Shown here: in pieces, positions 4,432-26,301 of the stretch
How the letters are laid out: the number at the start of each line of letters is the position of its first letter
How positions within the stretch are numbered: the stretch's first letter is position 1
IMG/VR virus record: IMGVR_UViG_3300035187_002427
Location: 1 to 37,925 of that record
Source: a virus
Reading direction: 5' to 3' (one strand)
DNA length: 37,925 nt
Notes under the pieces: model-generated
Database searches by the model: none
The model's input: only the letters and a program-made list of their open reading frames with translations
Told to the model about the DNA's origin: nothing
Position numbers and translations under genes: made by a program

Positions 4432-4688
4432 CGCTTTTCCTCCCTTGCGGTATGCCCGATGTGATTAACTTGGCTCTGCAATTGCCAGTAAAGCTTTCTC
4501 AGCTCGTCTCTGTCGTCTTTGCACTCGACCAACTCTTTTGCCACCGTTTCGGTAAGGTCTTTTCGGATGGTTGAATTCTGGAAGTAAAGATGGACAACAG
4601 CACCGGTTAAAGCCCCTACGATGGTAGTGGCAACACCGATAAAGGTTGTGTCGTTCGATGTCATTTGAGCCAAGAAAAGCCAACTCAT
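4428..4688 (-). CDS. Membrane protein with coiled coil (spanin-like)
   Basis: An 86-residue protein: a short start, one span (FIGVATTIVGALTGAVVHLYF) then a long charged helix (TETVAKELVECKDDRDELRKLYWQLQSQVNHI). N-terminal anchor plus coiled coil fits an i-spanin-like or small holin-associated protein; no o-spanin partner is obvious. Confidence 0.5.
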   Translation of the reverse strand: MSWLFLAQMTSNDTTFIGVATTIVGALTGAVVHLYFQNSTIRKDLTETVAKELVECKDDRDELRKLYWQLQSQVNHIGHTAREEKR

Positions 4689-5119
4689 CGCACCGCCTCC
4701 GCTGCTTGCTCCAAGGTTGTGTAGCCTGTCAGGGTCGCTTTTTTGTCGCCCGATTTTATTTCAAAGGTCGGCGTTCGCCCGTAGCTGTGAGGCTCATCGA
4801 AAATGGCAACCTCCCACTTAGCATCCATAAATCTTTGCATTTCACACCGCTTCCATCGGTCGCAAGGCTCGCACTTTTGGTCTTTAGGGGCCAGGAAGAC
4901 TAGGATCTCGCGTTTGGTTGCTTCGTGCTTGTCGCTTGGACTTGGCTGCGGGTCGATCGGCTCAACTGTAAAGGATTCCTTGACAGTTGCGACTTCTTCG
5001 ATCAACGGCGTAGTGTCCATCAAGTCGCATTGCGTAGGATCCTTAGCCGGTTCGCTACAAAACCAAAACAATCCAAGCAACAAAACGACCATGATTACCG
5101 GCCCTCCTTTTTCGTTCAT
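4685..5119 (-). CDS. Membrane-anchored thioredoxin-fold protein
   Basis: A 144-residue protein. Residues about 8-20 (VIMVVLLLGLFWF) form an N-terminal anchor; a Pro/Glu-rich spacer follows. From about residue 69, EILVFLAPKDQKCEPCDRW carries a CxxC redox pair in a thioredoxin pattern, and RTPTFEIKSGDKKATLTGY holds the cis-Pro position of the fold. It would face the outside of the membrane and could reduce, form or shuffle disulfides. ATGA overlaps both neighbours. Confidence 0.75.
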   Translation of the reverse strand: MNEKGGPVIMVVLLLGLFWFCSEPAKDPTQCDLMDTTPLIEEVATVKESFTVEPIDPQPSPSDKHEATKREILVFLAPKDQKCEPCDRWKRCEMQRFMDAKWEVAIFDEPHSYGRTPTFEIKSGDKKATLTGYTTLEQAAEAVR

Positions 5120-5943
5120 CCTAACGGCCTATCCTTCATCCAAGATACCGCCCTTGGTCCCGGCGTCGACAAATCTGATACGCCGACGATTGAGGTGTAT
5201 TCGTGTCGGCAAAGCTGATCGATAACCGATGGGGCAATTTCGGTCCAAGAGTCGTTTGCGTGACTGTTCAACCGCCAGATGTAGTTCCGGCCGCGCGAGT
5301 CTTTGCGTTTGGAGTAGCCCGCCAAGCAATAAGCATGGCCGCCGCCGCTGCGCAGACTGACCGACTCAAGTACCTTGTTTTGCGAATAGAACGATCCGTT
5401 CCATAGAGTGCCAGCAAAGCCGAGTCCTACGCCAGACGCAAAGTAGTTTTTGATTGCGTCATACGAATCAAGCCAAGTATGCGAGCGAATCTTAAAGGGG
5501 CTTGCAAGCGTCCGCATTTCGTCAGTAATAAGTGTTTTGGCGTTTCGCGGGTACGGAGTCGAATATGGCAAGTGCTTGTAAGGTAGGTAGCCGATGTTTG
5601 CGCTAACCCACAATCCGCCGCTTACCGTCGATCCTCGATCCACGCCGAAAAGCCCGTTGCCGTCTCTCCGCTGCGTTTCGATGTAGGTAAACGTAGGGGA
5701 AAACTGCCTTTCCTCGCTGATAGCCCCGTGAGACAAAGCCCAAAGGCCCTCGCCGCAATTGGTATTCCCAAAGGCCCCGCAAGAATTCATTTGCCCTTGG
5801 TCGTCATGCCTGATTAGCTTCCGGAAGTCAATTTCCTCCGGAGCCTCGTAATCGCCGACGCGAATCCCAAGCTCGGTCGATGTCGCTCGGATCTCGTCGC
5901 GGTTCTCGATTGTGGGGTCGTAGCCGGAGAAAAAATCACTCAT
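5116..5943 (-). CDS. Papain-like (C1 family) cysteine peptidase
   Basis: A 275-residue protein with the C1 catalytic set: oxyanion Gln and Cys in DQGQMNSCGAF (Q49, C55), the same six-residue spacing as papain; His in GGGHAYCLAGY (H203); and Asn in RLNSHANDSW (N226), where papain has NSW. No signal peptide or propeptide is apparent. It lies amid small membrane proteins, so roles in lysis, envelope penetration or cleaving a host protein are possible. It could be the peptidoglycan or envelope hydrolase, since no other endolysin is visible. Confidence 0.8.
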   Translation of the reverse strand: MSDFFSGYDPTIENRDEIRATSTELGIRVGDYEAPEEIDFRKLIRHDDQGQMNSCGAFGNTNCGEGLWALSHGAISEERQFSPTFTYIETQRRDGNGLFGVDRGSTVSGGLWVSANIGYLPYKHLPYSTPYPRNAKTLITDEMRTLASPFKIRSHTWLDSYDAIKNYFASGVGLGFAGTLWNGSFYSQNKVLESVSLRSGGGHAYCLAGYSKRKDSRGRNYIWRLNSHANDSWTEIAPSVIDQLCRHEYTSIVGVSDLSTPGPRAVSWMKDRPLG

Positions 5944-6094
5944 CGTCTGCGATCACCTCCAGGCTTTCGAGCATCGGAACGACGACAAAATCAAAGAGCG
6001 CATCAGCAAGGATTTTGGTTATCGCAAACGGAGACGCTGCGACAAGCAACGCAAACAAAACCGCCCGAGCCCCATACCGCCTTGCCCGCTTCAT
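5936..6094 (-). CDS. Small membrane protein, 52 residues
   Basis: ATGA overlap start. A basic start (MKRARRYGAR), one span (AVLFALLVAASPFAITKIL), then an acidic end (MLESLEVIADDE). Its stop overlaps the peptidase gene. Confidence 0.5.
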   Translation of the reverse strand: MKRARRYGARAVLFALLVAASPFAITKILADALFDFVVVPMLESLEVIADDE

Positions 6095-6333
6095 TCTGGA
6101 TCCTCCAGCCCTCTCGGATCGCCAGGGCCCAGCGTGCCATCGGGCAGTATATCGTATTTGATATGATCGAGCTTTTGGGCCCCCATCGGATTGGATCGCT
6201 TGAGCCTCGACACCTTGAGGCCTAAGAAATAGCCCGAGAAGAAGCACCCCGCCAAGAATGCCCCAACGCCAAAAGGCCCTGCCCATAGGACAAGCTGAAC
6301 CAAATACCAAGTGAACAATCCGATTTCAGTCAT
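6091..6333 (-). CDS. Small membrane protein
   Basis: TAATG overlap start at 6333; 80 residues. Two spans (FTWYLVQLVLWAGPFG and GAFLAGCFFSGYFLGL), then a hydrophilic tail (RSNPMGAQKLDHIKYDILPDGTL). Similar in layout to small phage envelope proteins. Confidence 0.5.
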   Translation of the reverse strand: MTEIGLFTWYLVQLVLWAGPFGVGAFLAGCFFSGYFLGLKVSRLKRSNPMGAQKLDHIKYDILPDGTLGPGDPRGLEDPE

Positions 6334-6710
6334 TACCAAGCCCTCGAAATTTCTCTGTTGATTCGTGCTATTTCCGCTTCACGCCCCGCAAACGTCACGG
6401 GCAATTTTAGTTCATCGATCGCCGTGTACACTCGGTCGAGGGCTTCGCGATTCTTCCCGCCTGCATTGTCCGAGATGAACTTGGTCCATTGCTCTTGGTC
6501 TTTGATTTCGCCCGTTTCGATCTTCGCCGCTGCATCGAGAAAGGCTTGCTTGTAAGCCGCCCTAATTGATGGAATCGTCGACCGGACCACGGCAGTTACT
6601 CCGGCCGGCTTAGATGAATCACCCCCTCCCTTTGGTTGCTGGTTCATCACGTAGAGGACCAAGCCCCCAATGATTAGCCAAGGAATCCAGTTGTCTTTTT
6701 GCTTCGCCAT
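6333..6710 (-). CDS. Membrane-anchored hypothetical protein
   Basis: Start at 6710 (GGAG 6 bases upstream), 125 residues. An N-terminal span (WIPWLIIGGLVLYVMNQ), a Gly/Ser/Lys linker, then a helical domain (IPSIRAAYKQAFLDAAAKIETG, REALDRVYTAIDEL). Resembles internal or membrane proteins that accompany injection or lysis genes. Function unknown. Confidence 0.5.
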   Translation of the reverse strand: MAKQKDNWIPWLIIGGLVLYVMNQQPKGGGDSSKPAGVTAVVRSTIPSIRAAYKQAFLDAAAKIETGEIKDQEQWTKFISDNAGGKNREALDRVYTAIDELKLPVTFAGREAEIARINREISRAW

Positions 6711-6727
6711 CCGTCTCTCCAGTTTGC

Positions 6728-6781
6728 CCCCTGCCAACTCACCGAGCCCTATACATCGGAAAAGTTCGGGTTGGCTAGGGG
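6728..6781 (-). ncRNA. Large hairpin in gene gap
   Basis: Immediately after the stop at 6782, CCCCTAGCCAAC pairs with GTTGGCAGGGG (11 bp, one bulged A), enclosing CCGA/TCGG. There is no T run, so it is not a standard terminator. It ends close to the ribosome site of the next gene and may control its translation or message stability. Confidence 0.45.
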
Positions 6782-7102
6782 TTATTCGTCGTCGCTTTCG
6801 TCGTCACCGTCAAATTCACCCGCATCCCAAGCCGTCTGAAGAATGTACCCCATCGGAGCATCGGACGCATCGTAAGCCGAAAGATAGCCGTTGTCTTTGG
6901 CCCATTTCCAGACCTTGAAGGCCAGTTGAATCAGCGCGAAAATCATCGCGATTGTTGCCGGGTCGAGACCGTAAAGACCGACAAGCTTCGAGCGAAGAGC
7001 CCTTCGAGCCTTGCGAGTGTTGCCGTCTGCATCGGCGTAGGCCTGGGCAAAATCCGCGTTGTGCTTGCGGGCTAGCTCCTGGAGTCTTGGGAATGCAATC
7101 AC
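6782..7102 (-). CDS. Hypothetical protein with acidic tail
   Basis: A 106-residue protein with GTG start (GTGA overlap). The N-terminal half is helical (LQELARKHNADFAQAYADAD), then a hydrophobic segment (PATIAMIFALIQLAFKVWKW) and an acidic tail (GEFDGDDESDDE). Possibly membrane-linked. A large hairpin follows the stop. Confidence 0.5.
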   Translation of the reverse strand: MIAFPRLQELARKHNADFAQAYADADGNTRKARRALRSKLVGLYGLDPATIAMIFALIQLAFKVWKWAKDNGYLSAYDASDAPMGYILQTAWDAGEFDGDDESDDE

Positions 7103-7293
7103 TTTGCCACCTCAGGCTTGCGAATGCCGCGACTGACAAGCCAGCCGGTAATCAAGATCGTAGCGTTGTCGGTCAGCCATTTCAGTTGAGTCTCGTCGAA
7201 TGGCAATCGATCCTTCAAATAGACCGAAACGACCAACGCAACTAGCCCTCCAACAAAGGCTTTGTTGCGATCTGATGCAAAAAATCCGCTCAT
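7099..7293 (-). CDS. Holin-like membrane protein
   Basis: Start at 7293 (GGAG 9 bases upstream), 64 residues. A span (AFVGGLVALVVSVYLKDRL), a short hydrophilic loop (PFDETQLKWLTDN) and a second, shorter hydrophobic segment (ATILITGWLVSRGI), ending with basic residues. The layout and the place ahead of a run of membrane proteins suggest a holin. Confidence 0.5.
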   Translation of the reverse strand: MSGFFASDRNKAFVGGLVALVVSVYLKDRLPFDETQLKWLTDNATILITGWLVSRGIRKPEVAK

Positions 7294-7315
7294 CGTTGAA
7301 ATCTCCTTTGCTAAC

Positions 7316-7344
7316 ATCTTATCCCCAGTCAAGGGGCTTGACAA
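7316..7344 (-). promoter_or_regulatory. Promoter P3 upstream of the membrane-protein cluster
   Basis: TTGTCA (7344-7339) and TAAGAT (7321-7316) are 17 bases apart on the minus strand; the next start is 23 bases downstream with GGAG. The spacer contains CCCC...GGGG dyad symmetry. It would drive the lysis and envelope block. Confidence 0.6.
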
Positions 7345-7363
7345 TCACCGGGGCAAATTTTTG

Positions 7364-7690
7364 TCATGGCCCCATTTCCAGGTTGCCGATCAAGGCATTG
7401 ACGTTATCGGGGTCCAGCTTGTGCGCCTGAGCGTGTTTTCGGATCTCCTCGAAGGTAAAATGCTCGGCATACGCTGCAAGCCCAATAGTGTCCATGTACC
7501 GAACGATTTCGGGCAGGCTCAGCAGCATGGCAAATTCTGCCGTCTTGCTCAGTTTGGCTTGCCTTGTCAATCGCAACGCTTTTCTCGCGACATTGCCCGC
7601 GCCGAACTTCCTCCCGTGGATGTGTTCGCTCGCTTCGATGTGGCTGAGACACTGTTGCAACGCCTCACGCAAAATTCTAACTTTCGACAT
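7364..7690 (-). CDS. Hypothetical helical protein
   Basis: A 108-residue protein with GGAG 9 bases upstream. Helical throughout: LREALQQCLSHIEASEHIHG, VARKALRLTRQAKLSKTAEF, then EEIRKHAQAHKLDPDNVNAL. Function unknown; last gene before promoter P3. Confidence 0.5.
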   Translation of the reverse strand: MSKVRILREALQQCLSHIEASEHIHGRKFGAGNVARKALRLTRQAKLSKTAEFAMLLSLPEIVRYMDTIGLAAYAEHFTFEEIRKHAQAHKLDPDNVNALIGNLEMGP

Positions 7691-7904
7691 TTTTCAAATC
7701 TCCAGGATGCGGAGCCGGAGGGCTCCAGGTACACAAAATCGCATTTACGCAAAACAAAAACGCCGCCGGGCAGGAAAGCAACGCCAGACTGTGGAAAAAC
7801 TCAAGGATAATCCAAGTCGGATGGATCGACGCCAAGTCGCCCCAAAAGAAAAGCACCGCGACGGATCGCAAGGCCCAGAGGCAGGATTGGTAGAGTTTGG
7901 TCAC
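7677..7904 (-). CDS. Small two-span membrane protein (holin-like)
   Basis: GTG at 7904 with AGGAGG 8 bases upstream, overlapping the previous stop (GTGA). The 75-residue product has two hydrophobic segments (SCLWALRSVAVLFFWGDLA and IILEFFHSLALLSCPAAFLF) and a charged C-terminus. Layout fits a class II holin-sized protein, but no family is recognised. Confidence 0.5.
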   Translation of the reverse strand: MTKLYQSCLWALRSVAVLFFWGDLASIHPTWIILEFFHSLALLSCPAAFLFCVNAILCTWSPPAPHPGDLKNVES

Positions 7905-8101
7905 GCTTTGCCCCTCCTTCGCTTCTTCGCCACCGGCTTGGACTTTGGCCGCTTTTTGATTTTGCGTGGCAAGAATAGCCCTAAGTGCTCGTTCATGGCC
8001 TCGAAAATTAGCCCGCTCAGGGTCATATCCATCGCTGCCGCTTGCCTGTCCCATGCCGCCCAAGCCTCTTCGGGCTGGGAGATGTTTTTGCGTTCGGTCA
8101 T
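7901..8101 (-). CDS. Small basic protein, possible DNA binder
   Basis: A 66-residue protein: MTERKNISQPEEAWAAWDRQ, a helix pair (AMDMTLSGLIFEAMNEHLGL) that fits a ribbon-helix-helix fold, and a basic tail (KKRPKSKPVAKKRRRGKA). Probably a small DNA-binding protein. Confidence 0.5.
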   Translation of the reverse strand: MTERKNISQPEEAWAAWDRQAAAMDMTLSGLIFEAMNEHLGLFLPRKIKKRPKSKPVAKKRRRGKA

Positions 8102-8265
8102 CTTGTAAAAACCCTCGATTCTGCTTCCCCCTCAAGCATAAACATTGGCAAGTTTCCTGCTTTTGGCGTCCACTGCCAAAACGTCGCAACAACCTTTTTC
8201 CCTTCAATCATGTCGCCCAGTTTGACTGGGTGGGATTTTCGCATTGACTCAAAATAACCGTTCAT
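8098..8265 (-). CDS. Small hypothetical protein, 55 residues
   Basis: ATGA overlap at both ends. Begins MNGYFESMRKSHPVKLGDMI, then EGKKVVATFWQWTPKAGNLP and MFMLEGEAESRVFTR. Beta-rich, SH3-like in pattern. Function unknown. Confidence 0.55.
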   Translation of the reverse strand: MNGYFESMRKSHPVKLGDMIEGKKVVATFWQWTPKAGNLPMFMLEGEAESRVFTR

Positions 8266-8534
8266 TTTACCTCCTGAGTTGAGCCGTACTCGTTTTCAAA
8301 CTCTGGCCGAGGCCCGATATAGCACCACCACGCAAACTCCGGTTCGCTTTGCGGTGCTTGGAATGTAACACCGACCAGCACCGGAGCAATGTTTTGCTGC
8401 CCACCACCGCAAGCCCAGATGCCGGGATGCGTTACGTATCCCCACTCGAAGCGGAATTTTTCCTTGCCGTAACTAGCTAAATGATGGTTTTGCGATGCCT
8501 TTTCGCAGTTGATTATGTTTTTGCGTTCGGTCAT
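8262..8534 (-). CDS. Hypothetical protein
   Basis: Start at 8534 by ATGA overlap; 90 residues. Begins MTERKNIINCEKASQ, the first seven residues also opening another gene at 8101. The remainder (FRFEWGYVTHPGIWACGGGQQN, FAWWCYIGPRPEFENEYG) is aromatic-rich and beta-like. No family recognised. Confidence 0.5.
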   Translation of the reverse strand: MTERKNIINCEKASQNHHLASYGKEKFRFEWGYVTHPGIWACGGGQQNIAPVLVGVTFQAPQSEPEFAWWCYIGPRPEFENEYGSTQEVK

Positions 8535-8935
8535 TGGGTCACCTCGATGATCGTTCCGACTGAATCGCATGGGCCAACGTACCACTTCGCGACCGTAAGC
8601 ATAAACACTTGCCCGTCGTCATTGTAGGCGATTTCATTCAAGGCATCGAGGATTGCCTTGCCGACATTGTCCAGGTCCGGCTTTGTGGTCTTTGGTTCTA
8701 GCTGTTGCCGTCGCTTCTTGCTGTGGCTCTTTGGTCGGTCGAACAAACAAACGATCCGAATTTCAACCGGCCCCTCTACCACTTCGCCGCCTGCGTTGAC
8801 GTAAGCCAACCTGACTGCTTGCTTGTAGGCGTGAATCGGATGGTCTCGCTCTGTGTAGGCCCTCGCAAAGCCGTTCTTTGTCGAAACCTTGACTCTTGGC
8901 TGGGCGATCGGTTCGCCTGGAATAAAGATCTTCAT
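8531..8935 (-). CDS. rusA: RusA-family Holliday junction resolvase
   Basis: A 134-residue protein of normal RusA length. It starts with IFIPGEPIAQPRVKVS, holds FDRPKSHSKKRRQ (residues 65-77), and the catalytic core KPDLDNVGKAILDALNE (D87, D89) followed by YNDDGQV (D106, D107). RusA dimers bind four-way junctions and cut them with magnesium, clearing recombination branches before packaging. The nearby RecE-type exonuclease suggests a complete recombination set. ATGA overlaps next gene. Confidence 0.9.
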   Translation of the reverse strand: MKIFIPGEPIAQPRVKVSTKNGFARAYTERDHPIHAYKQAVRLAYVNAGGEVVEGPVEIRIVCLFDRPKSHSKKRRQQLEPKTTKPDLDNVGKAILDALNEIAYNDDGQVFMLTVAKWYVGPCDSVGTIIEVTQ

Positions 8936-9141
8936 TCGCCCACCTCCTTAATCAATCGCTCAAGCTTAGCGAAAAGTTTCTCGCTTGGTCGCTTGCCGGT
9001 CTTATAACAGGCGATGTACTCATCCTTGGCCTTTACCAACTCGCGAAGTAGCCTGCATTCCATAACTAGCATCCTTCCAGCTTCGCTGCCGCTTGCTATC
9101 GCCGCTGCTTCGGCTTCCGTGATTTTTCTAAACTTGCTCAT
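8932..9141 (-). CDS. Small helical protein
   Basis: Start at 9141 by ATGA overlap, 69 residues: KITEAEAAAIASGSEAGRML, CRLLRELVKAKDEYIACYKTG, KLFAKLERLIKEVGE. Helical and charged; function unknown. It sits directly before the RusA-like gene. Confidence 0.5.
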   Translation of the reverse strand: MSKFRKITEAEAAAIASGSEAGRMLVMECRLLRELVKAKDEYIACYKTGKRPSEKLFAKLERLIKEVGE

Positions 9142-9599
9142 TCGCAGACCTCGATCCTGCATTGGTCCCATTGACCGCTCAACTCTTGCTCTTCGTTGAC
9201 ACAAAGAAAAGGGAATCGCTCCAGCTCTTTGACCGTGCAATAGCGATGGAATTGGCCGCAATTGGAAACGAACATGTAGGCGTTCTTTGGTCCGTGGTGA
9301 ATCGATTTCAAGAAGCCTTCCGTTCCATGCCTCTTATGCCCCGGCGAAACAAATCGCACCGCATCGCCGACCTTGATGGGGTCGCTCGAACTATTCGGGA
9401 TTTCCGAAGAGTTGGCCGGCTCGACGGGTCGGCATTGCTTCCTGCCAGCCCAAAACCAGTTATCCTTACCGCTCGGCGTGACCTTTATCAGGCTCTCGCA
9501 GGGATCAATCACCTTGCACTTAATCCAGACAAAATCGCCTGCCTTCACTTGCCCGCCCTCCTTGCTGGATGGGTCTTGTTTGTCAATTTCGTGATCCAT
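9138..9599 (-). CDS. Hypothetical protein with two SH3-like regions
   Basis: A 153-residue protein. Two beta regions, VKAGDFVWIKCKVIDPCE and IKVGDAVRFVSPGHKRHGTEG, resemble KOW/SH3-like barrels that bind RNA or protein. A His/Cys-bearing stretch (SNCGQFHRYCTV) follows. No enzyme motif. Confidence 0.5.
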   Translation of the reverse strand: MDHEIDKQDPSSKEGGQVKAGDFVWIKCKVIDPCESLIKVTPSGKDNWFWAGRKQCRPVEPANSSEIPNSSSDPIKVGDAVRFVSPGHKRHGTEGFLKSIHHGPKNAYMFVSNCGQFHRYCTVKELERFPFLCVNEEQELSGQWDQCRIEVCE

Positions 9600-9697
9600 T
9601 GCCTAAGCCCCTTGTTTCGTTCCTGTAGTAGTTTGACCCGCATTTCCAGCCAATACACTTTGTCTTGGAGTTTGCGGGTCTTTTCGTCGTCGGTCAT
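9545..9697 (-). CDS. Small coiled-coil protein, 50 residues
   Basis: Start at 9697 by ATGA overlap. Nearly all helix with heptad spacing (KLQDKVYWLEMRVKLLQERN, then KGLRQWITKL) and a basic end. Function unknown. Confidence 0.5.
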   Translation of the reverse strand: MTDDEKTRKLQDKVYWLEMRVKLLQERNKGLRQWITKLTNKTHPARRAGK

Positions 9698-10161
9698 CGT
9701 CGCACCTGCGCCGCTGCCAAATCCGCTAAAACTTGGTCCCGAGTCGCGTAGTGTTCCGCTTTGGTGATCTTGCCAAGCTTGCATTGCTCGCCGGACTCAA
9801 GCACCCTGGCAATGAATGGCCGCAGCGAAACATGGCTGTAATTGCCCGTCGGTTCTTCTCTGTTGCGAATCATGTCAACCAGTTGCGTCTTGCGTGCGTT
9901 TACCCGATCCTGCAAGACAACCGCCCGAAGGTGTAAAGCAAAATCGCCTAGCTCGTAATATTGAGGCCTTGGCAGTTCGTCCTTGGACCATCGATAAACC
10001 ACGGAGATAGCTTCCTGGGTTGTAATGTCCCGGAGGGTCATTGCCCAAGCGTCGATAGTTCCGAGCACGCTGCTTGTCTCTTTGTTCAGGTAGGTGCCAA
10101 GGCTCGGAAAATGGATCATGGCGATTCGCGTAAAAAATTCTCGATTCTCAGACGTTTCCAT
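9694..10161 (-). CDS. Possible helicase loader
   Basis: A 155-residue helical protein overlapping the initiator gene by 14 bases. Its N-terminal half (FFTRIAMIHFPSLGTYLNKE, WAMTLRDITTQEAISVVYRWSKD) resembles the helical domain of phage loaders of the SPP1 G39P type, and its place right after an initiator is that of lambda P. No ATPase motif is present. The call depends mainly on context. Confidence 0.45.
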   Translation of the reverse strand: METSENREFFTRIAMIHFPSLGTYLNKETSSVLGTIDAWAMTLRDITTQEAISVVYRWSKDELPRPQYYELGDFALHLRAVVLQDRVNARKTQLVDMIRNREEPTGNYSHVSLRPFIARVLESGEQCKLGKITKAEHYATRDQVLADLAAAQVRR

Positions 10162-10906
10162 TGTTCATTTCCTCGATAAGCTTGAGGGTCTTTTCTGCGT
10201 TGGTAAGTTTTCTGCTGGGTTGGGCTCCTGTCGCTGGCCCGCCGACCGGCTTTAGCAAGCCCTGCCCGCCGTCATCGTGGCAAATGTTCTTGGCCCCGAT
10301 CCGAATCGAAAACTCGATGTCTTTCAGGGCCTTGGCTTCACCCCTTCGGAGCAAGTCCATAATCACCGCGTCGGCTTGAGCCTCTGGCATCCACTGCCCA
10401 TCCTTCGCGAATCGGAAGTCCAGCCATCGGACCCAATCCTTTTTGAGCCAATTAGGCAGTGTATCTATATTTGAATACTCTTCTCTTCTCTTCTCTTCTC
10501 TGGTCCCCTGTTCCGTCCCGGTTTTGTCCCCCGGTTTGTCCCCCTTGCTAGGGGACAGCTTTATACGCTGCATAGCCTTCTTTTTCTGGCCTTTTGCACG
10601 TTCTTTCGCGCTTTTCGACAGGTGAACCTCGTACCCGGGAATCGAAACCACGCCATCCTCGACGTATAGCCAGCCGACCGAAACTAGAGCGTCTGCAAAC
10701 CCGTCCCTCCCTGCGACCCTATCTAGTCCCTTTTTTGTCCCCTTTACTTGGGGACAATCTGGGGACAGATTCAGGTCGACCCAAAGCCAAAACGCGACTA
10801 GATGCCCTACCACTTCATGGGGCGAAGCGTCGAGCGTGTCGGCCAGCAGCATAACCTCGGGCTTGCCCAATAGCCCATGCTCGATTTTGATCCAATCACC
10901 GGCCAT
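10148..10906 (-). CDS. Replication initiator-like protein
   Basis: A 252-residue protein; of two adjacent ATGs I chose 10906 (GAGG 8 bases upstream). The first 100 residues (WIKIEHGLLGKPEVMLLADTL, VGHLVAFWLWVDLN, VGWLYVEDGVVSIPGYEVHL) form a winged-helix pattern of phage initiators. A charged linker (SPSKGDKPGDKTGTEQGT) leads to a C-terminal domain with WLDFRFAKDGQWMPEAQADAVI. The linker DNA holds repeated GTCCCC units, as the lambda O gene holds its origin. A Glu/Arg run (REEKRREEY) comes from a GAGAA repeat. Confidence 0.7.
   Translation of the reverse strand: MAGDWIKIEHGLLGKPEVMLLADTLDASPHEVVGHLVAFWLWVDLNLSPDCPQVKGTKKGLDRVAGRDGFADALVSVGWLYVEDGVVSIPGYEVHLSKSAKERAKGQKKKAMQRIKLSPSKGDKPGDKTGTEQGTREEKRREEYSNIDTLPNWLKKDWVRWLDFRFAKDGQWMPEAQADAVIMDLLRRGEAKALKDIEFSIRIGAKNICHDDGGQGLLKPVGGPATGAQPSRKLTNAEKTLKLIEEMNNGNV
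10459..10557. other. Candidate replication origin with GTCCCC iterons
   Basis: GTCCC-type units occur at 10503, 10515 (GTCCCG), 10526 and 10538, with an inverted GGGGAC at 10551, spaced about 11-13 bases. Next to them is an AT-rich stretch (10459-10478) and a TTCTC repeat (10481-10500). Iterons plus an easily melted tract inside the initiator linker is the lambda O/ori design. Confidence 0.5.
10726..10767. repeat. GTCCC(C) repeat cluster 2
   Basis: Inside the initiator gene: GTCCC at 10726, GTCCCC at 10737, and inverted GGGGAC at 10750 and 10761. A possible secondary set of initiator sites. Confidence 0.45.
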
Positions 10907-10941
10907 CATTTCACCCTCAGTTAAAACCACCAAACAATAAT

Positions 10942-11235: not shown

Positions 11236-11251
11236 CATATTTCCTTTCAAG

Positions 11252-20260: not shown

Positions 20261-20281
20261 CTCAACTTCTCCAAAAAAAGG

Positions 20282-20671
20282 TTAAACAACTTCCAATTCA
20301 ATCCTAAGTAACGCTGCATCCTCGGCATCGATGGGGCCGCAGTTGGCCTCCCATTTCACGCCGCTCGCAAGACCCAAGCCCGATACCATTCGCTCGGCTA
20401 GTGCTTCCGCTGCCCTTACGCCAGGGTCGGAGGATACGCCAACAAAAACCGCATCGAGCATGCCCCGAAAGGGGCTATCGTAAATGTGAAGGTTGTACCA
20501 TCGACCAGCAACAACGCCGTTAGGTGCCGAGTAGTGATCGAACGTGCATTTCGCTACCCGCGTAATCCGAGTCCGGTCTTTCGGCTTTTGTTTCAGCCAT
20601 CTCCCGTTAGGTGCCTTGGTCCGCTTTCGCTGCTTACGCCGAGCCACGACCAACAAATAAAACTCATCCAT
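20282..20671 (-). CDS. Hypothetical basic protein
   Basis: Start at 20671, with GAGG about 8 bases upstream, giving 129 residues. A basic N-terminal third (VVARRKQRKRTKAPNGRWLKQKPKDR) is followed by an alpha/beta part (WYNLHIYDSPFRGMLDAVFVGVSSDP). No catalytic motif recognised. Confidence 0.5.
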   Translation of the reverse strand: MDEFYLLVVARRKQRKRTKAPNGRWLKQKPKDRTRITRVAKCTFDHYSAPNGVVAGRWYNLHIYDSPFRGMLDAVFVGVSSDPGVRAAEALAERMVSGLGLASGVKWEANCGPIDAEDAALLRIELEVV

Positions 20672-20921
20672 TGGCCCTACCTCGCTTTCGTTTGATCGCT
20701 GGAGCGTCCTTGAGGTTGTAGCGGACCGGCCGCCCTCTACCGCGATCTGGGATCGATGCAAGCGTCTCCTTGCGGTTTAGCCTAAGGATCCAAATTGCTC
20801 TGTCTACAATCGCCAACCCAACGAACGCCGATTTCTCGACGCCCTCAGCCTCCGCCGCTTCGCTTAGTAGCTCCGCAATGCGTAGGGGTTGCGTTGTGTT
20901 TACGTTGACCGTGTTACTCAT
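20664..20921 (-). CDS. Small DNA-binding-like protein
   Basis: I start at 20921 (GGAG 9 bases upstream), giving 85 residues. It has a short N-terminal strand (NTVNVNTTQPLRI), a helix pair (AELLSEAAEAEGVEKSAFVGLAIVDRAIWI) resembling a ribbon-helix-helix fold, and a very basic tail (GRGRPVRYNLKDAPAIKRKRGR). The pattern suggests a small transcriptional regulator, but target and family are unknown. Confidence 0.5.
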   Translation of the reverse strand: MSNTVNVNTTQPLRIAELLSEAAEAEGVEKSAFVGLAIVDRAIWILRLNRKETLASIPDRGRGRPVRYNLKDAPAIKRKRGRANG

Positions 20922-21300
20922 CAATGCAAACTCCAAAGGGGGTTCCGTCGGCAAATTCAAATAGCCTAAAAGCGTCAACCATTGCGTGGCGAATAATTGT
21001 GCTTCCAGCCGCAACGTAAACTCCAAGCTTGCTAGTGCTAACCACGCTATCGAAGCCCGTCCCGTCCTTTAAGCGAATTGGCTTGCCCCAGTGAGGTAAA
21101 TACTCGTCCGCATCCTTAAAATGTCGATAGCGTGCGGGCTTCTCGATCTTGCGGATGATGCAAACGCGATAAACAGTCCGCACCACAATCAAATGCGGCT
21201 CTCCTTCGGGGCTGACGCAATGCTCCCCTGGTTCGCCGAACCTGCTTACATGCTCGACTTCCCACCCCTCTGGTACGCCCGGTATTTGATTGCTACTCAT
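20914..21300 (-). CDS. Hypothetical accessory protein
   Basis: A 128-residue protein. The N-terminal third (IPGVPEGWEVEHVSRFGEPGEHCV) and the middle WGKPIRLKDGTGFDSVV read as beta strands; the end is VDAFRLFEFADGTPFGVCIDE. Phrases of the type GEHCVSPEGEPHLI recur in small phage accessory proteins of unknown function. It overlaps the next gene by 8 bases. Confidence 0.5.
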   Translation of the reverse strand: MSSNQIPGVPEGWEVEHVSRFGEPGEHCVSPEGEPHLIVVRTVYRVCIIRKIEKPARYRHFKDADEYLPHWGKPIRLKDGTGFDSVVSTSKLGVYVAAGSTIIRHAMVDAFRLFEFADGTPFGVCIDE

Positions 21301-21505
21301 TTTCCTTGGCCTCCTGTGTTGCCGGTACGTAGTGCCAGTTGTCGCCGCTGATTTGCATCTGTCCGATCCTTGGATTCTCTAGCCCGTCAGAGACGTCGAG
21401 ACTGCCAATTAAAGTTAAGTCGTGCGAGTGATCGCATTGAAACTTTTCGATCGCGTCCAAAAGTTCCGCGATTGCCCTAAGTTCGTTCGCTGAATGATCT
21501 GCCAT
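21293..21505 (-). CDS. Small hypothetical protein
   Basis: A 70-residue protein: an N-terminal acidic helix (ANELRAIAELLDAIEKFQCDH) then a beta part (LTLIGSLDVSDG, IGQMQISGDNWHYVPAT). No family recognised. It is translationally coupled to its neighbours on both sides. Confidence 0.5.
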   Translation of the reverse strand: MADHSANELRAIAELLDAIEKFQCDHSHDLTLIGSLDVSDGLENPRIGQMQISGDNWHYVPATQEAKENE

Positions 21506-21708
21506 TATTCGCCCTCCGTCGTTGGTTGCGATTGCTCAAGCCGACCTCGCAGTACCGCGCATAGATCGGTTAGTCGCTGGCTATGGCCCTGCAACCGCAA
21601 AAGACAATCCCTATCCATAGGTATCTTTTCGCTGCCGTTTCCGACCACCCAAGCCGTGTGCCTGATGTCCATTAGCAGCTCCACTTTGGTTTTGTCGCTC
21701 ATCCCCAT
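21505..21708 (-). CDS. Small helical protein, paralog of the previous gene
   Basis: A 67-residue protein sharing with its upstream neighbour the LLxDIR start, the xEIP/EKIP turn and the C-terminal LCxxLRxRLE helix. The two lie 1 base apart, so this is a tandem duplication that has diverged. Function unknown. Its stop shares a base with the next ATG (TAATG). Confidence 0.58.
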   Translation of the reverse strand: MGMSDKTKVELLMDIRHTAWVVGNGSEKIPMDRDCLLRLQGHSQRLTDLCAVLRGRLEQSQPTTEGE

Positions 21709-21709
21709 G

Positions 21710-21940
21710 CTATTCGCCCTCCGCTAGTGTTTTGCGTAAGTGTTGGATTGCCGGGTCTTGTGCTTCAAGCCGCTGCCGCAGAAGCTTGCAAAAAATCGCT
21801 AGAGCGTTGCCGTAGCTTTCTAGCCGCTGTATCTCCGCGATCGTCATCGAGCCCACTAGGGGGATTTCATCGCTTGCGTCACGGATCGCTAAAGCCGCCT
21901 GCCGGATATCGTCGAGTAGTTCGCCGTCTGTTTTCTTCAC
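21710..21940 (-). CDS. Small helical protein, paralog of the next gene
   Basis: A 76-residue helical protein: GELLDDIRQAALAIRDASDEIP, a short turn, then RLESYGNALAIFCKLLRQRLEAQ. The next gene has the same layout (LLMDIRHTAWVV...EKIP, then RLTDLCAVLRGRLEQSQ). Function unknown; helical hairpins of this size often form dimers. Confidence 0.6.
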   Translation of the reverse strand: MKKTDGELLDDIRQAALAIRDASDEIPLVGSMTIAEIQRLESYGNALAIFCKLLRQRLEAQDPAIQHLRKTLAEGE

Positions 21941-22146
21941 GAATAATCCCTCTCAGTTAAGTGTAAGTTTGCCATCGTCCCGCGTGCCCAATTAGCCCGC
22001 GTCGAAGGCGTGTTTCTGGCCTCTGCCGTCTTGGCCTTGGCCGCTCGGCAGGATCGGCATTGAGTGTCTAGCCCGTCCTTGGTCCGGTTGGATCGCCGGA
22101 ACTCGCAGAGGGGCTTGGCAAGGGTGCATTTTGTGCAGGGTTTCAT
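21937..22146 (-). CDS. Small zinc-ribbon protein
   Basis: I start at 22146, where ATGA couples it to the previous gene, giving 69 residues. It has two Cys pairs, CTKC at residues 4-7 and CRSC near residue 33, with LAKPLCEFRRSNRTKDGLDTQ between them: a treble-clef pattern also seen beside HNH nucleases, but the HNH residues are absent here. A role in nucleic acid binding is likely. Confidence 0.6.
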   Translation of the reverse strand: MKPCTKCTLAKPLCEFRRSNRTKDGLDTQCRSCRAAKAKTAEARNTPSTRANWARGTMANLHLTERDYS

Positions 22147-22418
22147 CGTCTCGCAACGTCCCATGCTCGCTTTGTCCCGTAGCCAAGCTGGTCCTGCTCG
22201 ACGATGTAAACCACCGATGGATCGGAATCGCCGTCGCTGTCATCGTCATCGTCATCGTCATCGCTGTCGCCCCATTCGCTAATCTCTTTACCCGAGCACA
22301 AGCCGCGAATCGAATTTTCAAAGGGCCAGTTTTCTTGGGTCATCAATCGGACTTCGGTATCACCGCCAATTTCGTCGCGGTATTCTTCGAGCCGTTCAAT
22401 CAGTTCGCTTATCGTCAT
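22143..22418 (-). CDS. Acidic small phage protein with poly-Asp run
   Basis: A 91-residue protein. It opens MTISELIERLEEYRDEIGGDTEVRLMTQ, text widely seen in small phage proteins of unknown role, then has an eight-Asp run in SDDDDDDDDSDGDSD (residues 52-66) encoded by repeated GAT/GAC, and closes with VVYIVEQDQLGYG. The Asp run is a codon-level repeat that could vary by slippage. The last base pair group overlaps the next start (ATGA). Confidence 0.65.
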   Translation of the reverse strand: MTISELIERLEEYRDEIGGDTEVRLMTQENWPFENSIRGLCSGKEISEWGDSDDDDDDDDSDGDSDPSVVYIVEQDQLGYGTKRAWDVARR

Positions 22419-22446
22419 CGTTCATCGTCTCCAAAAAAGTGTGAGT

Positions 22447-22464
22447 AAAAAGACCCCGAAGGGT
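22447..22464 (-). terminator. Short UUCG-loop terminator
   Basis: ACCC-TTCG-GGGT followed by CTTTTT on the minus strand. The stem is only 4 bp, but the TTCG loop is unusually stable. It lies 27 bases after the 54-residue gene and before the next start at 22418. Confidence 0.5.
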
Positions 22465-22490
22465 TTCGCCGTTGGTGGCTGGTTAGTGGG

Positions 22491-22655
22491 TTAGCGTGCG
22501 GTTCGAGCTTCGAGCCACTTTTGAGCACCCCTGAGGGTCTTAAAGTCCTTGCTCTGGGTGAAGGTCATCGCGGTGTAAGTTCCGTCGGCGTTCTTGAATA
22601 CGCCTCGGGTTTGCGTCTCGTTGTTTGCGTCTTCGATTCGAATCGTCGTTTGCAT
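22491..22655 (-). CDS. Small protein of 54 residues, unknown
   Basis: The ATG at 22655 has GGAG 8 bases upstream and the frame stops at 22491. The product begins MQTTIRIEDANNETQTRG, then VFKNADGTYTAMTFTQSKDF, and ends LRGAQKWLEARTAR. It reads as a small beta sheet with a C-terminal helix, similar in style to small phage and plasmid proteins of unknown role. It is a one-gene unit between promoter P1 and a terminator. Confidence 0.6.
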   Translation of the reverse strand: MQTTIRIEDANNETQTRGVFKNADGTYTAMTFTQSKDFKTLRGAQKWLEARTAR

Positions 22656-22705
22656 CGTATCGTCTCCGGTTAGTGGTTTGCGTCAGCGTTGTTGCCGACG
22701 TGTGT

Positions 22706-22767
22706 ATATTATCGGGCAGGGGATTAAAGATCAACAGGTTTTTTGGAAAAGATGTGGAAGTTTTTCC
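22706..22767 (-). promoter_or_regulatory. Promoter P1, duplicate of P2
   Basis: TTGATC (22734-22729) and TAATAT (22711-22706) are 17 bases apart on the minus strand, close to a consensus sigma-70 promoter. The 33-base block upstream (22767-22735) and ACACACGTCGG downstream are shared with P2. It drives the 54-residue gene at 22491. Confidence 0.72.
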
Positions 22768-22796
22768 AAAAAGCCGGGAGGCCCATTCCCCCCGGC
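22768..22796 (-). terminator. Rho-independent terminator after the 70-residue gene
   Basis: On the minus strand GCCGGG and CCCGGC pair across a G/C-rich loop that can extend the stem, followed directly by TTTTT. It starts 12 bases beyond the stop codon at 22809, and separates this unit from promoter P1. Confidence 0.7.
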
Positions 22797-22808
22797 CAAG
22801 TCAGTGGG

Positions 22809-23021
22809 TTAGGCTAATGCGTCGAGCTCAGCCTCGCACCATTGCATAAGCTCAAGAAACTCAGCGTAGCTCATCCTGTCCGCAAGCTCCCTGGTAATGA
22901 AAGTGCTTGCAATAATCGCCTCTGGGCGGTAGTCGCAATTCAGTTTCTTGAGTGCGTCGATGAGGGTCTCGGTTGTTTGCGACTTGGCGTACTGGGTCAT
23001 TTTGGCTTGTGCTGCGTTCAT
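22809..23021 (-). CDS. Small early-type protein, unknown
   Basis: A 70-residue protein starting at 23021 (AGGA 8 bases before ATG); the longer frame to 23099 would run through the promoter. It is helical, with LIDALKKLNCDYRPEAIIASTFITRELADRM and an acidic C-terminus (FLELMQWCEAELDALA). It stands alone between promoter P2 and a strong terminator, so it is probably expressed as its own message. Small, acidic, separately controlled phage proteins often act on host enzymes, but nothing in this sequence proves that. Confidence 0.6.
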   Translation of the reverse strand: MNAAQAKMTQYAKSQTTETLIDALKKLNCDYRPEAIIASTFITRELADRMSYAEFLELMQWCEAELDALA

Positions 23022-23076
23022 CTTTTCATTCCTGGTTTGCGTTGCGTCGTCAGTCTCGTTTGCTTCCGACGTGTGT

Positions 23077-23139
23077 ATCTTAATCGACCCACCAAACAAA
23101 GATCAACACCTTTATCCAAAAAGATATCGAAGTTTTTCC
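23077..23139 (-). promoter_or_regulatory. Promoter P2 with upstream AT-rich block
   Basis: Reading the minus strand, TTGATC (23106-23101) and TAAGAT (23082-23077) are separated by 18 bases. Upstream, bases 23139-23107 form a 33-base block starting GGAAAAACTTC that aligns without gaps with the same block at P1. ACACACGTCGG directly after the -10 box is also identical in P1. It drives the 70-residue gene at 22809. Confidence 0.65.
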
Positions 23140-23203
23140 CAAAACATACGTTTCGCCAACGAAAACGCAGGGAAAAAAGATTGTGGTTTTTTTGGCTAGG
23201 TGG

Positions 23204-23467
23204 CTAGGATCGCCCGAAACCTCTAGCCAAAAGCACCCTGGCTAGGTCGCTAGCTATTTCCGTCACCGCATCCTCCGACAAGTCGGGCATCGCTGCGTGA
23301 AGGCATTCGTGGAGCGTTGTATCGAGGTCTTGCCCTTCATCGAGCCCTGATCGGATGCCGATCGTCCTAGGCTGGCCCCGATCGCCTTCAAGGTCGCAAT
23401 AGCCAAATTCATCGGGCCTAGTGTCGTCGCGAATCGTCCAGGTTTGCTTGCGGATAATGGCTTTCAC
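23204..23467 (-). CDS. Zincin-like HExxH protein (putative metallopeptidase)
   Basis: I start this at the GTG at 23467 (GGAG 6 bases upstream), which shares a base with the phosphoesterase stop (TAGTG); it has 87 residues. It carries TTLHECLHAAMP, an HExxH metal-binding and catalytic motif, followed by an acidic helix (LSEDAVTEIASDLARVLLARGF) that may supply the third ligand. The N-terminus WTIRDDTRPDEFGYCDLEG is beta-rich. It is a minimal zincin resembling small phage SprT-like or WSS1-like domains. It is the last gene before a promoter-bearing gap. Confidence 0.65.
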   Translation of the reverse strand: MKAIIRKQTWTIRDDTRPDEFGYCDLEGDRGQPRTIGIRSGLDEGQDLDTTLHECLHAAMPDLSEDAVTEIASDLARVLLARGFGRS

Positions 23468-24468
23468 TACGCGCTCCACACTTCCCCGCGTCGATTGATG
23501 CGGTAGTTGCTTACGTTGAAATTGCCATCGCTGGAAACGTCGACCATCGCGAAACCGTGATTCCATCGATTTACCCTTGCGTACTTCGGCGTCATATCGC
23601 AAAGGCACCCCATTGACCAAGTAGGGGTCATAGAATGAAACATATCGGTATCCGTGTGATTCGATGTTTGGTGGCTATGGCTGACCAAAACCCTATGATG
23701 GGTCCGAAGAAATGCCCCTCTAGCCGGATTGACCGGACTGAAAATCGACTTGCCTAATTCGTGACCGTGAAGCACCGGAAGCTTGCCGAGCATAATCGGA
23801 TTGTCTCCGACCATTTCAATTTTAAGCCGCTTGAGCTGCAATAGCTCATCGAGTCGAACATTGGCTAGGTCGTAAATCTCAGGAGCGCGATTCCAGATAA
23901 AATGGTCCCAGCGCTCCTCGTGATTGCCCATTTTGTAGATGATTTTTTGCTTTGGGAATTCCGATCGCAACCACTCAAGCCCCTCAATTACCAGCTTCAA
24001 TTCGGTCGATAGCTTTCGATGGTTGGGGTCTCGCTGGTGCCTGGAGACTTGGTAAAAGTCTGCAAAGTCCCCGTTGATTAGTAGCGTGTCGATCTTAGAT
24101 TTCTTAAGGGACTGGACCGCCGCCTCGAAAGCCACTTCGCTGTGATAGGGAATATGAACGTCCGAGATTATCCCGCATCGCTTGCAGTCGAGCTCGATCG
24201 GAACCCAGGGTTCCGCTAACGACGGGGGCATCTTTGGGGCTTGGCCTGCTTTACCCTTTGGCCTTAGCTGGGTCGCTTGATTGCGATTCTTTTTTCCCAT
24301 AGCTCCGCGAATGTTGCGAATCATGCTCCTTGCGGTGTCGACCGTCGCAAACGCCTCTGGCCTTTCCTGCTTGGCCCGCTTAGCTAGCCCAATGTTCGGC
24401 GCATCAGGGAACTTTTTGCAAAGTTCCTCAAGGTAGATTCGTCCCGCTGTTTTCGGTGGTGACCCCAT
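23467..24468 (-). CDS. Calcineurin-like metallophosphoesterase
   Basis: The start at 24468 has GGAGGA 6 bases upstream and gives 333 residues; the longer frame to 24855 only shadows the preceding gene. Metallophosphoesterase motifs appear in order: DVHIP (DxH), GDFADFY (GDxxD), GNHEERWD (GNHE), VSHSHQTSNH and an earlier LHGHE. These bind two metal ions and hydrolyse phosphoesters. The N-terminal 60 residues form a basic helical domain (IYLEELCKKFPDAPNIGLAKRAKQ) that may bind nucleic acid. Phage relatives are usually of unknown substrate; a nucleotide or nucleic acid is most likely. Confidence 0.85.
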   Translation of the reverse strand: MGSPPKTAGRIYLEELCKKFPDAPNIGLAKRAKQERPEAFATVDTARSMIRNIRGAMGKKNRNQATQLRPKGKAGQAPKMPPSLAEPWVPIELDCKRCGIISDVHIPYHSEVAFEAAVQSLKKSKIDTLLINGDFADFYQVSRHQRDPNHRKLSTELKLVIEGLEWLRSEFPKQKIIYKMGNHEERWDHFIWNRAPEIYDLANVRLDELLQLKRLKIEMVGDNPIMLGKLPVLHGHELGKSIFSPVNPARGAFLRTHHRVLVSHSHQTSNHTDTDMFHSMTPTWSMGCLCDMTPKYARVNRWNHGFAMVDVSSDGNFNVSNYRINRRGEVWSA

Positions 24469-24859
24469 CTGATTTCCTCCAAATAGAGTAGGCTTCGTCG
24501 ATCGTGATTTCGGGCTTGCCAAGCTTCGCGTTGACGGCGTTATGAAGTGCAACACCCCATGCAAAAAATGCTTCGGGGGAGGTGAAGTCGGGGGGGATCT
24601 CGGCAAGGATCCGCTGGTAGCCGTCTTTGCAATCGCACCGCTGGGGAATGAGGTACTGCCAGATATCGAGCCATTGAGGATCGCAACCGCGATAGGAATG
24701 GAGCTTGGCCCAAGCGAATTGGCCTTGTTTGATTGTTCGCTCGATCCGCTTTGCGTTGACTTGCTCTTGGCTGATCGTCGGCGGTGGGTCGCCCTGCATC
24801 GTGATCGTGAACGTCCTGGGTTGTGGCGCAGCCCCTGGGGTAAACGGCGTTCCATCCAT
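24428..24859 (-). CDS. Erv1/ALR-like protein with CxC motif
   Basis: The frame is open from 24973, but the ATG at 24859 lies just past the Cys-rich gene's stop and starts at a plausible MDGTPFTPG, giving 143 residues. The C-terminal 75 residues match the pattern of Erv1/ALR sulfhydryl oxidases: WQYLIP, a Cys pair, about 20 residues, FFAWGVALHNAVN (residues 98-110), then AKLGKPEIT and a Trp (W127). The HN-x-VN and LGKP texts contact FAD in that family. The usual CxxC is replaced by CDC (C75, C77), so catalysis is uncertain; it may be an isomerase-like or structural relative. The N-terminal half is Pro-rich. Confidence 0.55.
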   Translation of the reverse strand: MDGTPFTPGAAPQPRTFTITMQGDPPPTISQEQVNAKRIERTIKQGQFAWAKLHSYRGCDPQWLDIWQYLIPQRCDCKDGYQRILAEIPPDFTSPEAFFAWGVALHNAVNAKLGKPEITIDEAYSIWRKSDGVTTENSGTNLP

Positions 24860-24867
24860 GTTGATAT

Positions 24868-26301
24868 TTAGGCTAGATTGATTGTCCACGATGGAGCACC
24901 TGTACAGACTGATTGACTTGAAAAACCCGAGCACGTCTGGGTTCGAGTGTGGGCTGTAACTGTTTGATTCCATTTTTTGCCGAACTTAGGCAAGCATCGG
25001 CCATCGGGCAGGCAACATTCGCAATCGTCGAGAAAATCGCAGCAATCCTGGTTGCAATTGCCAATAAAGCAATCCGATGTATCAAAATAAGGAGGCTCTG
25101 TTTCGCCCGCACCGCCTACGCTGATCGCGCAACCGCAAGCCAAGAAACCCCCAAAAGGAAATCCTACGCCGGGCCTGAAGCAAGTCGCTTCATTCTCTGG
25201 GTTAATCTGGAAGTCTAGGCAGTTCACCGAAAACGCCGTGCCTGGGCATTCATATTCAGGGGTCGCGCATATCGTTAAATTCGTCGTGCAAGATACCGCC
25301 GGGATGCAAGGGTCGTCAAAACATCCGTCGATATCCGTCACGTTTGGCTCTACCCCTAGCCCGTCATTAAAGCAGTTTTCCGCTTCGGACTCGATGATAG
25401 GCCCGCCCGAAGTCACCTCATCGGTACAGTAGCAAGGCTCGTTGAAAAAGCACCCCGTAAGGGCAGATGGGCTAGATGGTGAGTTAACGCAAACCGAGCT
25501 TGCGTAGTTGTACGGTTCGTAATTGCAGGAGCTAGCTTGGCAACCAGGGACTTCGGCATTTGTAAATTGTATCGCCCCGGTCGGCATTTCGTCATAGTAT
25601 CGAACTCGATCAAAGCCGAACACGCCTGAGTTTCGGCATAAACTCGAGCCGCTAAAAGGCGGTGGGTCGGCTGGTACGTCGCTGCAAGTGATCGGACTGC
25701 CCGCCCCTATCGTTATTTCGTAATCCGGGTTTACCTCAAAGCAGTCGGTATTGAGCATCGTCACCGTTTGCGATCCGCTGGTTAAGCCGTTTTGATAGAT
25801 CGCCGTTTCGTATTCGTAGTTGAATCGAGACCGGATAACGATTTTACACCCGCCGGTTTGACCCTCAACGCCTTCGCAGTCAACTTCCTCTTGGCTAATC
25901 CGAACGATGATGTTTTTTGGCCTGCGCCAAACCGCCATAAAAGCATTGTCGGTATATGCCGCCGTGCTTTGGGTTTCGGCTATTGGGGAGTAGCTGCCAC
26001 CGCAACAGTAGTCCTCTGGAACGTCGCTACAATCGCCGCCCAAGGGTCCATACTCAAAGCCGCGATAGCTGCCTCTGCCCTGCCTTGTGTGAAGCGTTGT
26101 GCATTCTTGGAGTACTGAGCCTTCGTAAAGTAAAGAACTGCAACTTTTCGACCAACTCGGCGTAGCGTTCGGCGTGAAAGTCTGTTCATAGCAACAATTG
26201 CCGGTCCAACCGCCGCCGGTGTAGCCGCTGATCGTAACGGTCGGCAAATCCTCGACCGCCAAGCATTCGCAAGTGCAACAGCATCGACCTACACCGCCCA
26301 T
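24868..26301 (-). CDS. Cysteine-rich tail tip or adhesin protein
   Basis: A 477-residue protein with about 43 cysteines (9%), spread along its whole length in CC, CxC and CxxC groups: RCCCTCEC at residues 7-14, and DCCDFLDDCECCLPDGRC near residues 415-440. It is otherwise rich in Gly, Ser, Pro and Asp, with almost no long helices. It is the last protein of the tail block and would suit a disulfide-stiffened fibre or receptor-binding tip. The next gene encodes an Erv1/ALR-like protein, hinting that its disulfides are made by a dedicated factor. Metal clusters are an alternative to disulfides. Confidence 0.6.
   Translation of the reverse strand: MGGVGRCCCTCECLAVEDLPTVTISGYTGGGWTGNCCYEQTFTPNATPSWSKSCSSLLYEGSVLQECTTLHTRQGRGSYRGFEYGPLGGDCSDVPEDYCCGGSYSPIAETQSTAAYTDNAFMAVWRRPKNIIVRISQEEVDCEGVEGQTGGCKIVIRSRFNYEYETAIYQNGLTSGSQTVTMLNTDCFEVNPDYEITIGAGSPITCSDVPADPPPFSGSSLCRNSGVFGFDRVRYYDEMPTGAIQFTNAEVPGCQASSCNYEPYNYASSVCVNSPSSPSALTGCFFNEPCYCTDEVTSGGPIIESEAENCFNDGLGVEPNVTDIDGCFDDPCIPAVSCTTNLTICATPEYECPGTAFSVNCLDFQINPENEATCFRPGVGFPFGGFLACGCAISVGGAGETEPPYFDTSDCFIGNCNQDCCDFLDDCECCLPDGRCLPKFGKKWNQTVTAHTRTQTCSGFSSQSVCTGAPSWTINLA

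Follow-up and report, generated by a model that had tools for sequence, protein, structure and literature searches.

The DNA analysed here, referred to below as the window, is a stretch of 37,925 nucleotides comprising positions 1 to 37,925 of the IMG/VR virus record IMGVR_UViG_3300035187_002427, and this study concerns two adjacent genes on its minus strand, one encoding a homologue of the Erv/ALR sulfhydryl oxidases and the other a cysteine-rich protein of the tail gene region. A preliminary description of the window had proposed that the phage carries its own disulfide system, composed of these two proteins and a membrane-anchored thioredoxin-fold protein encoded far downstream. The pair and its two flanking genes, which served as anchors in the comparison of relatives, are as follows:

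24428..24859, minus strand: Erv/ALR-like protein, 143 amino acids (aa), with C75-D-C77 (Pfam PF04777, PDB, AlphaFold2 (AF2) fold, residue conservation)
24868..26301, minus strand: Cys-rich tail-region protein, 477 aa, 43 Cys, N-terminal CCCTCEC; proposed substrate (invariant Cys columns, pairing, AF2)
23467..24438, minus strand: metallophosphoesterase, the next gene downstream of the Erv-like gene and conserved in that position; an anchor, outside the proposed mechanism (Pfam Metallophos 2.9e-7, phrog_221 4e-34)
26302..26985, minus strand: tail-region protein, 227 aa, directly upstream of the Cys-rich gene; second anchor (anchor test)

The Erv-like gene starts 8 nt past the stop codon of the Cys-rich gene; its frame is open further upstream, and the exact start is uncertain.

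An Erv/ALR homologue with a CxC motif

The product of 24428-24859 is a homologue of the Erv/ALR sulfhydryl oxidases. It matches the Pfam family PF04777 (Evr1_Alr) at 5e-9 with 36.9 bits, against a curated cut-off of 27.6, and PDB searches link it to human ALR, at 1.7e-6 as a single sequence and at 3.5e-9 as a family profile. The PF04777 cut-off is also passed by distant relatives at loci L092, L146, L160, L168, L210, L213, and L214, and two others (L231 and L256) fall slightly under it. The AF2 model, for which 24 homologues were used (pLDDT, the predicted local distance difference test, 73; pTM, the predicted template modelling score, 0.54), places helices at residues 31-55, 61-70, 76-87, 95-113, and 120-127, with C75 and C77 at the start of the third, and thus predicts, at medium confidence, the four-helix bundle that binds flavin adenine dinucleotide (FAD) plus a fifth helix. 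The best 24 PDB fold matches of this model are ALR, Erv1, Erv2, or pB119L of African swine fever virus (ASFV), with no other confident match; the template modelling (TM) score against the compact viral enzyme pB119L is 0.64 by target length, and BFVD, a viral structure library, returns sulfhydryl oxidases from giant viruses and their relatives. A chance Erv pattern is rejected by the Pfam, PDB, and fold searches.

The protein carries W50xxLH54, C75-D-C77, HNAVN (106-110), KLGKP, and W127. Across 68 distinct close homologues, W50, L53, H54, C75, C77, H106, N107, N110, and K112 never vary and W127 hardly does, and the whole flavin-pocket set (WxxLH, HNxVN, the lysine, and the C-terminal tryptophan) is retained. 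The Erv1/ALR end pattern (HNAVN, LGKP, W) reported in the preliminary description is therefore present and nearly invariant, and the ALR fold that it raised is borne out by the model. The two conserved tryptophans align, in our own mapping, with Trp95 and Trp183 of yeast Erv1, which are reported to be important for FAD binding and folding (PMC4721541). A degenerate Erv relic is disfavoured, the active-site cysteines and pocket residues being invariant; the protein probably binds FAD and acts as a thiol oxidase. No second conserved (shuttle) cysteine pair was found in the alignment of Erv-like homologues, which is not decisive for family membership because most compact viral members also lack one (PMC3509050).

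A 2023 survey gives the family signature as a CxxC beside FAD and its range as eukaryotes, a few bacterial groups, and some double-stranded DNA viruses (PMC10598087). The window protein has CDC instead of the canonical CxxC flavin-proximal disulfide, as the preliminary description had noticed, and is therefore filed as a variant branch of PF04777, not as a standard member. Every Erv-like protein found among IMG/VR relatives was collected, giving 117 distinct sequences, of which 110 carry CxC and seven CxxC (CSTC in L167, L168, and L170, CFTC in L173, CSAC in L208, and CVTC in L214 and L215). All seven occupy the same gene slot, adjoining a Cys-rich gene, and since these relatives have the classical motif, CxC is regarded as a variant active site. 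In unrelated folds, CxC disulfides are redox-active and oxidising, with potentials of -139 mV in CsgC, -167 mV in a CGC peptide, and -130 mV in YphP (PMC3173608).

A glycosyltransferase-like domain is fused C-terminal of the Erv-like domain in 17 of the 117 proteins, all adjoining Cys-rich genes. The fusions include a GT8-like type (L083, L157, L160, L200, and L218), a GT4 type (L146 and L269), and a third type (L092 and L214), the domain being confirmed by Pfam for L146 only and recognised by sequence pattern in the rest. The Erv gene is also mosaic, a nearly identical C-terminal half being combined with either of two N-terminal halves that differ greatly and that each carry WxxLH and CxC, as seen in the window gene (24428-24859) and in the L005 versus L045 types, a pattern that suggests recombination inside the gene.

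The cysteine-rich partner and its pairing with the Erv-like gene

The pairing of the Erv-like gene with a Cys-rich tail-region gene is dedicated and strict in every relative examined. When a Cys-rich open reading frame (ORF) is defined by at least 12 Cys and at least 3% Cys, such an ORF (median 8% Cys) lies directly upstream of the Erv-like gene in 112/112 cases, the count taking in all Erv-like proteins with at least 1.5 kb of upstream DNA (112 of 117). The same thresholds are passed by just 7 of about 807 other ORFs (at least 150 aa, same strands), which excludes chance pairing and chance cysteine richness alike. The two anchor genes were chosen independently of Erv. Among 62 metallophosphoesterase loci with enough DNA, 49 carry both genes and none carries Erv without a Cys-rich gene. 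In seven of the 13 loci without Erv, the tail protein has at most 15 Cys or none and the Erv slot holds no partner; in the other six, the tail protein is Cys-rich and a small protein of another kind, bearing CGC or CKC, comes after it. When the 227-aa gene upstream serves as anchor, both genes are present in 44/44 relatives with enough downstream DNA, including L378, which is the contig of L143 and has a 520-aa Cys-rich ORF. The conserved pairing envisaged in the preliminary description is thereby established. The partners form five groups without detectable mutual similarity, one of them including L092, whose Erv-like domain is very divergent; the largest homology cluster holds 104 of 114 partners. 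One 44.7-kb contig (G021, IMGVR_UViG_3300016265_001020) carries two different Erv/Cys-rich pairs (L200 and L201), one of them with an Erv-glycosyltransferase fusion and on the opposite strand.

The partner in the window contains 43 Cys in 477 aa (9.0%), in agreement with the preliminary count, and the remaining window proteins counted contain 0-3.5%, save a zinc-ribbon-like protein at 453-1427 with 6.8%. An alignment of 31 homologues, some sharing as little as 19% identity, has 17 invariant columns, every one of them Cys. Neither enriched CxxC pairs nor conserved His, which would mark a metal-binding protein, were found in 24868-26301: CxxC occurs twice against 3.8 expected, and His is scarce among the partners (median 0.8%). 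Because only Cys columns are invariant, His is rare, and CxxC is not enriched, disulfides fit better than zinc-finger or Fe-S sites. Co-variation of cysteines, examined for disulfide pairs, is dominated by lineage. The AF2 model of the protein (pLDDT 76) is of the all-beta type, its strands being long, and a PDB fold search with the model matched no solved structure; no recognisable signal peptide was found in the Erv-like or the Cys-rich protein. The predicted features fit a disulfide-stabilised extracellular virion protein. The Cys-rich proteins start with MGxxGxCCCxCxC (window 26240-26301) and their Cys-poor counterparts in L179, L181, and L184, which have no Erv, with GCGCC; the N-terminal Cys cluster may have a separate role.

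A small phage family with the pattern GLGD..GL.A.GITKER...CGCxxRxxxLNxxG and an invariant CxC (L183, L188, L189, L192, L194, and L281-L360) occupies the Erv slot in Erv-less relatives, with a Cys-rich ORF directly upstream in 35/60. It has no match in Pfam, PHROGs, or annotated phage records, one member (L305) has a glycosyltransferase match below threshold, and comparison with Erv found no homology (hhalign probability 1.5).

Gene order in the window and the thioredoxin-like gene

The minus strand of the window encodes, in order, a portal protein, a head maturation protease/major head protein, and a tail tube protein (Phage_tube_2), followed by a Cys-free tape-measure-like protein, three genes, the Cys-rich gene, the Erv-like gene, and the metallophosphoesterase. 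Besides the genes listed above, four are relevant here:

30653-31591: tail tube gene (Pfam Phage_tube_2)
28582..30024, minus strand: probable tape measure protein, 480 aa, no Cys (sequence; position after the tube gene; order kept in L083/L088)
4685..5119, minus strand: membrane-anchored thioredoxin-fold-like protein, 144 aa, CEPC (weak Thioredoxin_2 matches; adjoins the papain-like gene)
5116..5943, minus strand: papain-like protein (Peptidase_C1 0.03, below cut-off; 4-nt ATGA overlap with the thioredoxin-like gene)

Because it is placed after the tube gene and the tape-measure-like gene, the Cys-rich gene is assigned to the distal tail region, and its product is a putative tail protein; it is gene order, and nothing beyond it, that speaks for the label 'tail protein' given in the preliminary description.

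The thioredoxin-like protein had been named there as a third member of the system. The gene exists as described, the product of 4685-5119 having a hydrophobic N-terminus, CEPC, and a TPTF segment resembling a cis-Pro segment, and its homologues conserve CxPC, TPTF, and GYTT; Thioredoxin_2 matches in 8/12 of them are weak and below the cut-off (best 0.0047), and a PDB search with the protein gave no match. Its place in the pathway is not upheld. The gene lies about 20 kb from the Erv-like gene of the window, in a separate gene group, and directly 3' of the papain-like gene in 29/29 loci that include the latter, a 30th being cut at its end. In L152 (6772-7917), the two are fused, the thioredoxin-like domain having CSWC, and the stretch examined there contains neither an Erv nor a Cys-rich gene. 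A homologue occurs in 9/12 Erv contigs of at least 36 kb plus the window and in 0/5 Erv-less contigs of at least 35 kb, but this co-occurrence covers, within the near lineage, most of the long contigs, and the gene is absent from the long Erv-bearing contigs G021, G337, and G338. Papain adjacency, distance, and these three contigs argue against genetic linkage to the Erv/Cys-rich pair, and the thioredoxin-like protein is regarded as belonging to another unit; the adjacency and fusion suggest that the papain-like and thioredoxin-like proteins may form a unit.

Elsewhere in the window, the 324-aa product of 453-1427, with 22 Cys in zinc-ribbon-like CxxC pairs, is unrelated to the Cys-rich tail protein and is probably a DNA-binding or HNH-type protein. 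No terminal repeat was found at the window ends (1 and 37925) and no terminase was recognised among the window proteins scanned; the record is probably incomplete. A search for tRNAs toward host assignment found none. One relative sits in a contig of a Flavobacteriaceae metagenome-assembled genome; the remaining genes on that contig look phage-like.

Proposed mechanism, alternatives, and relation to known systems

The Erv-like enzyme probably forms disulfides in the Cys-rich tail protein, using FAD to carry electrons from the thiols of that protein to a final acceptor, either oxygen or another molecule. The CxC disulfide would be reduced by thiols of the freshly synthesised Cys-rich protein and restored by FAD, and the flavin would in turn give up the electrons to the final acceptor; since there is no shuttle pair, the electrons would most likely be taken directly from the substrate. 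Disulfides would thus be introduced while the tail assembles, under the reducing conditions of the host cytoplasm, and would yield there a tail component stabilised by covalent bonds. The Erv-like gene occurs in many uncultured tailed phages, invariably right behind the Cys-rich gene, which suggests that they supply an enzyme of their own for cross-linking a part of the tail. Of the preliminary proposal of a phage-encoded disulfide system, the Erv/ALR relation, the CxC motif, and the dedicated pairing are retained and the thioredoxin-like member is dropped. Several points weigh against this oxidase mechanism: the bacterial cytoplasm is reducing, CxC differs from the canonical flavin-proximal motif, cysteine counts are odd in many partners, the CCCxCxC cluster at the N-terminus is a potential metal site, the AF2 model of the Erv-like protein is of medium confidence and was built without cofactor, and the pairing among related phages partly reflects common inheritance, several loci being near-identical and therefore not independent events.

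Among the alternatives, the Erv fold may have been kept and its oxidase function lost, so that the protein would serve the Cys-rich partner as a dedicated assembly chaperone or, through CxC, as a disulfide isomerase or reductase. The CxC potentials in other folds quoted above (PMC3173608) are isomerase-like, the shuttle pair is missing, and the glycosyltransferase-fused Erv domains could be docking modules; every conserved flavin-pocket residue is nevertheless retained and CxxC relatives occupy the same slot, and we consider this explanation unlikely. Less probable still is that the Cys-rich protein is a metal-binding tail protein (Zn, Cu, or Fe-S) with free thiolates, protected or loaded by the Erv-like protein. 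The dense CCCxCxC-type cluster conserved in all relatives, with a GCGCC-type start even in the Cys-poor counterparts, would agree with this, but His is scarce, CxxC is not enriched, the cysteines are spread across a predicted beta-rich protein, and the neighbour comes from a disulfide-forming family.

The pairing could also be inherited gene order only, with the enzyme acting elsewhere, for example on a different virion protein or on proteins of the host envelope. Many cases are non-independent, as the single cluster of 104/114 partners indicates; however, the five mutually dissimilar partner clusters, including the very divergent L092, the near absence of other Cys-rich proteins, and the loss of Erv together with the tail-protein cysteines make this very unlikely. 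The least probable of the explanations is a three-part relay of the Erv-like enzyme, the membrane-anchored thioredoxin-fold protein, and the Cys-rich substrate, resembling poxvirus E10-A2.5-G4. The distribution across long contigs (9/12 plus the window, against 0/5 without Erv) favours it, but that distribution tracks close lineage, the thioredoxin-like gene is tied to the papain-like gene and missing from three long Erv contigs, and its product is membrane-anchored whereas the Erv-like protein and its substrate look cytoplasmic.

Among viruses of eukaryotes, giant viruses, poxviruses, and baculoviruses are known to encode Erv oxidases. In the poxvirus E10R/A2.5L/G4L pathway, a virus-encoded Erv enzyme serves the virus's own virion proteins in the cytoplasm; here, by contrast, there is no confirmed relay partner, the thioredoxin-like gene lying in another gene group. 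The compact Erv enzymes of nucleocytoplasmic large DNA viruses (ASFV pB119L and the mimivirus R596 core; PF04777) resemble the phage protein in fold, WxxLH and HNxVN motifs, small size, the lack of a shuttle pair in most (PMC3509050), and service to a virus assembling in a reducing cytoplasm. The phage version differs in its occurrence in a tailed phage of prokaryotes, its CxC, its fixed pairing with a Cys-rich tail gene, and its glycosyltransferase-like fusions. Cellular ALR/Erv1, the mitochondrial FAD-linked sulfhydryl oxidase, tops the PDB matches in both sequence and fold, but the phage protein has neither shuttle cysteines nor the WLCHLHN...DC structural disulfide, has a CxC site, and is not mitochondrial. 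CsgC and YphP share a redox-active CxC with measured oxidising potential (PMC3173608) and differ in having other folds and no flavin; the likeness is one of analogy only.

A search of the open-access literature, with subscription papers and preprints outside its reach, found no description of a phage Erv with a Cys-rich tail gene, and novelty is therefore provisional. Searches of 50,697 annotated phage records with the Cys-rich protein, the window Erv, the CxxC Erv, and the Erv domain of L092 gave no match, and an Erv fusion gave weak matches only (E 0.2-0.3). PHROGs contains no Erv family, and PF04777 was found in 0/14 control genomes and in 0/295 other genomes sampled from the phylum of the Flavobacteriaceae relative.

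In a wider reading, which is possible and which we put forward tentatively, a widespread class of phage CxC sulfhydryl oxidases would put disulfides into Cys-rich tail-tip proteins in the bacterial cytoplasm, some of them, fused to glycosyltransferases, both oxidising and glycosylating the same tail protein, and elsewhere the apparently unrelated small CGC protein (GLGD...CGCxxRxxxLN) would fill the slot and the role. If the oxidase mechanism is correct, tailed phages would carry their own oxidative folding enzyme inside a reducing cytoplasm, the Erv flavin site could work with CxC, and the protein might offer a small oxidase for producing disulfide-rich proteins in bacteria.

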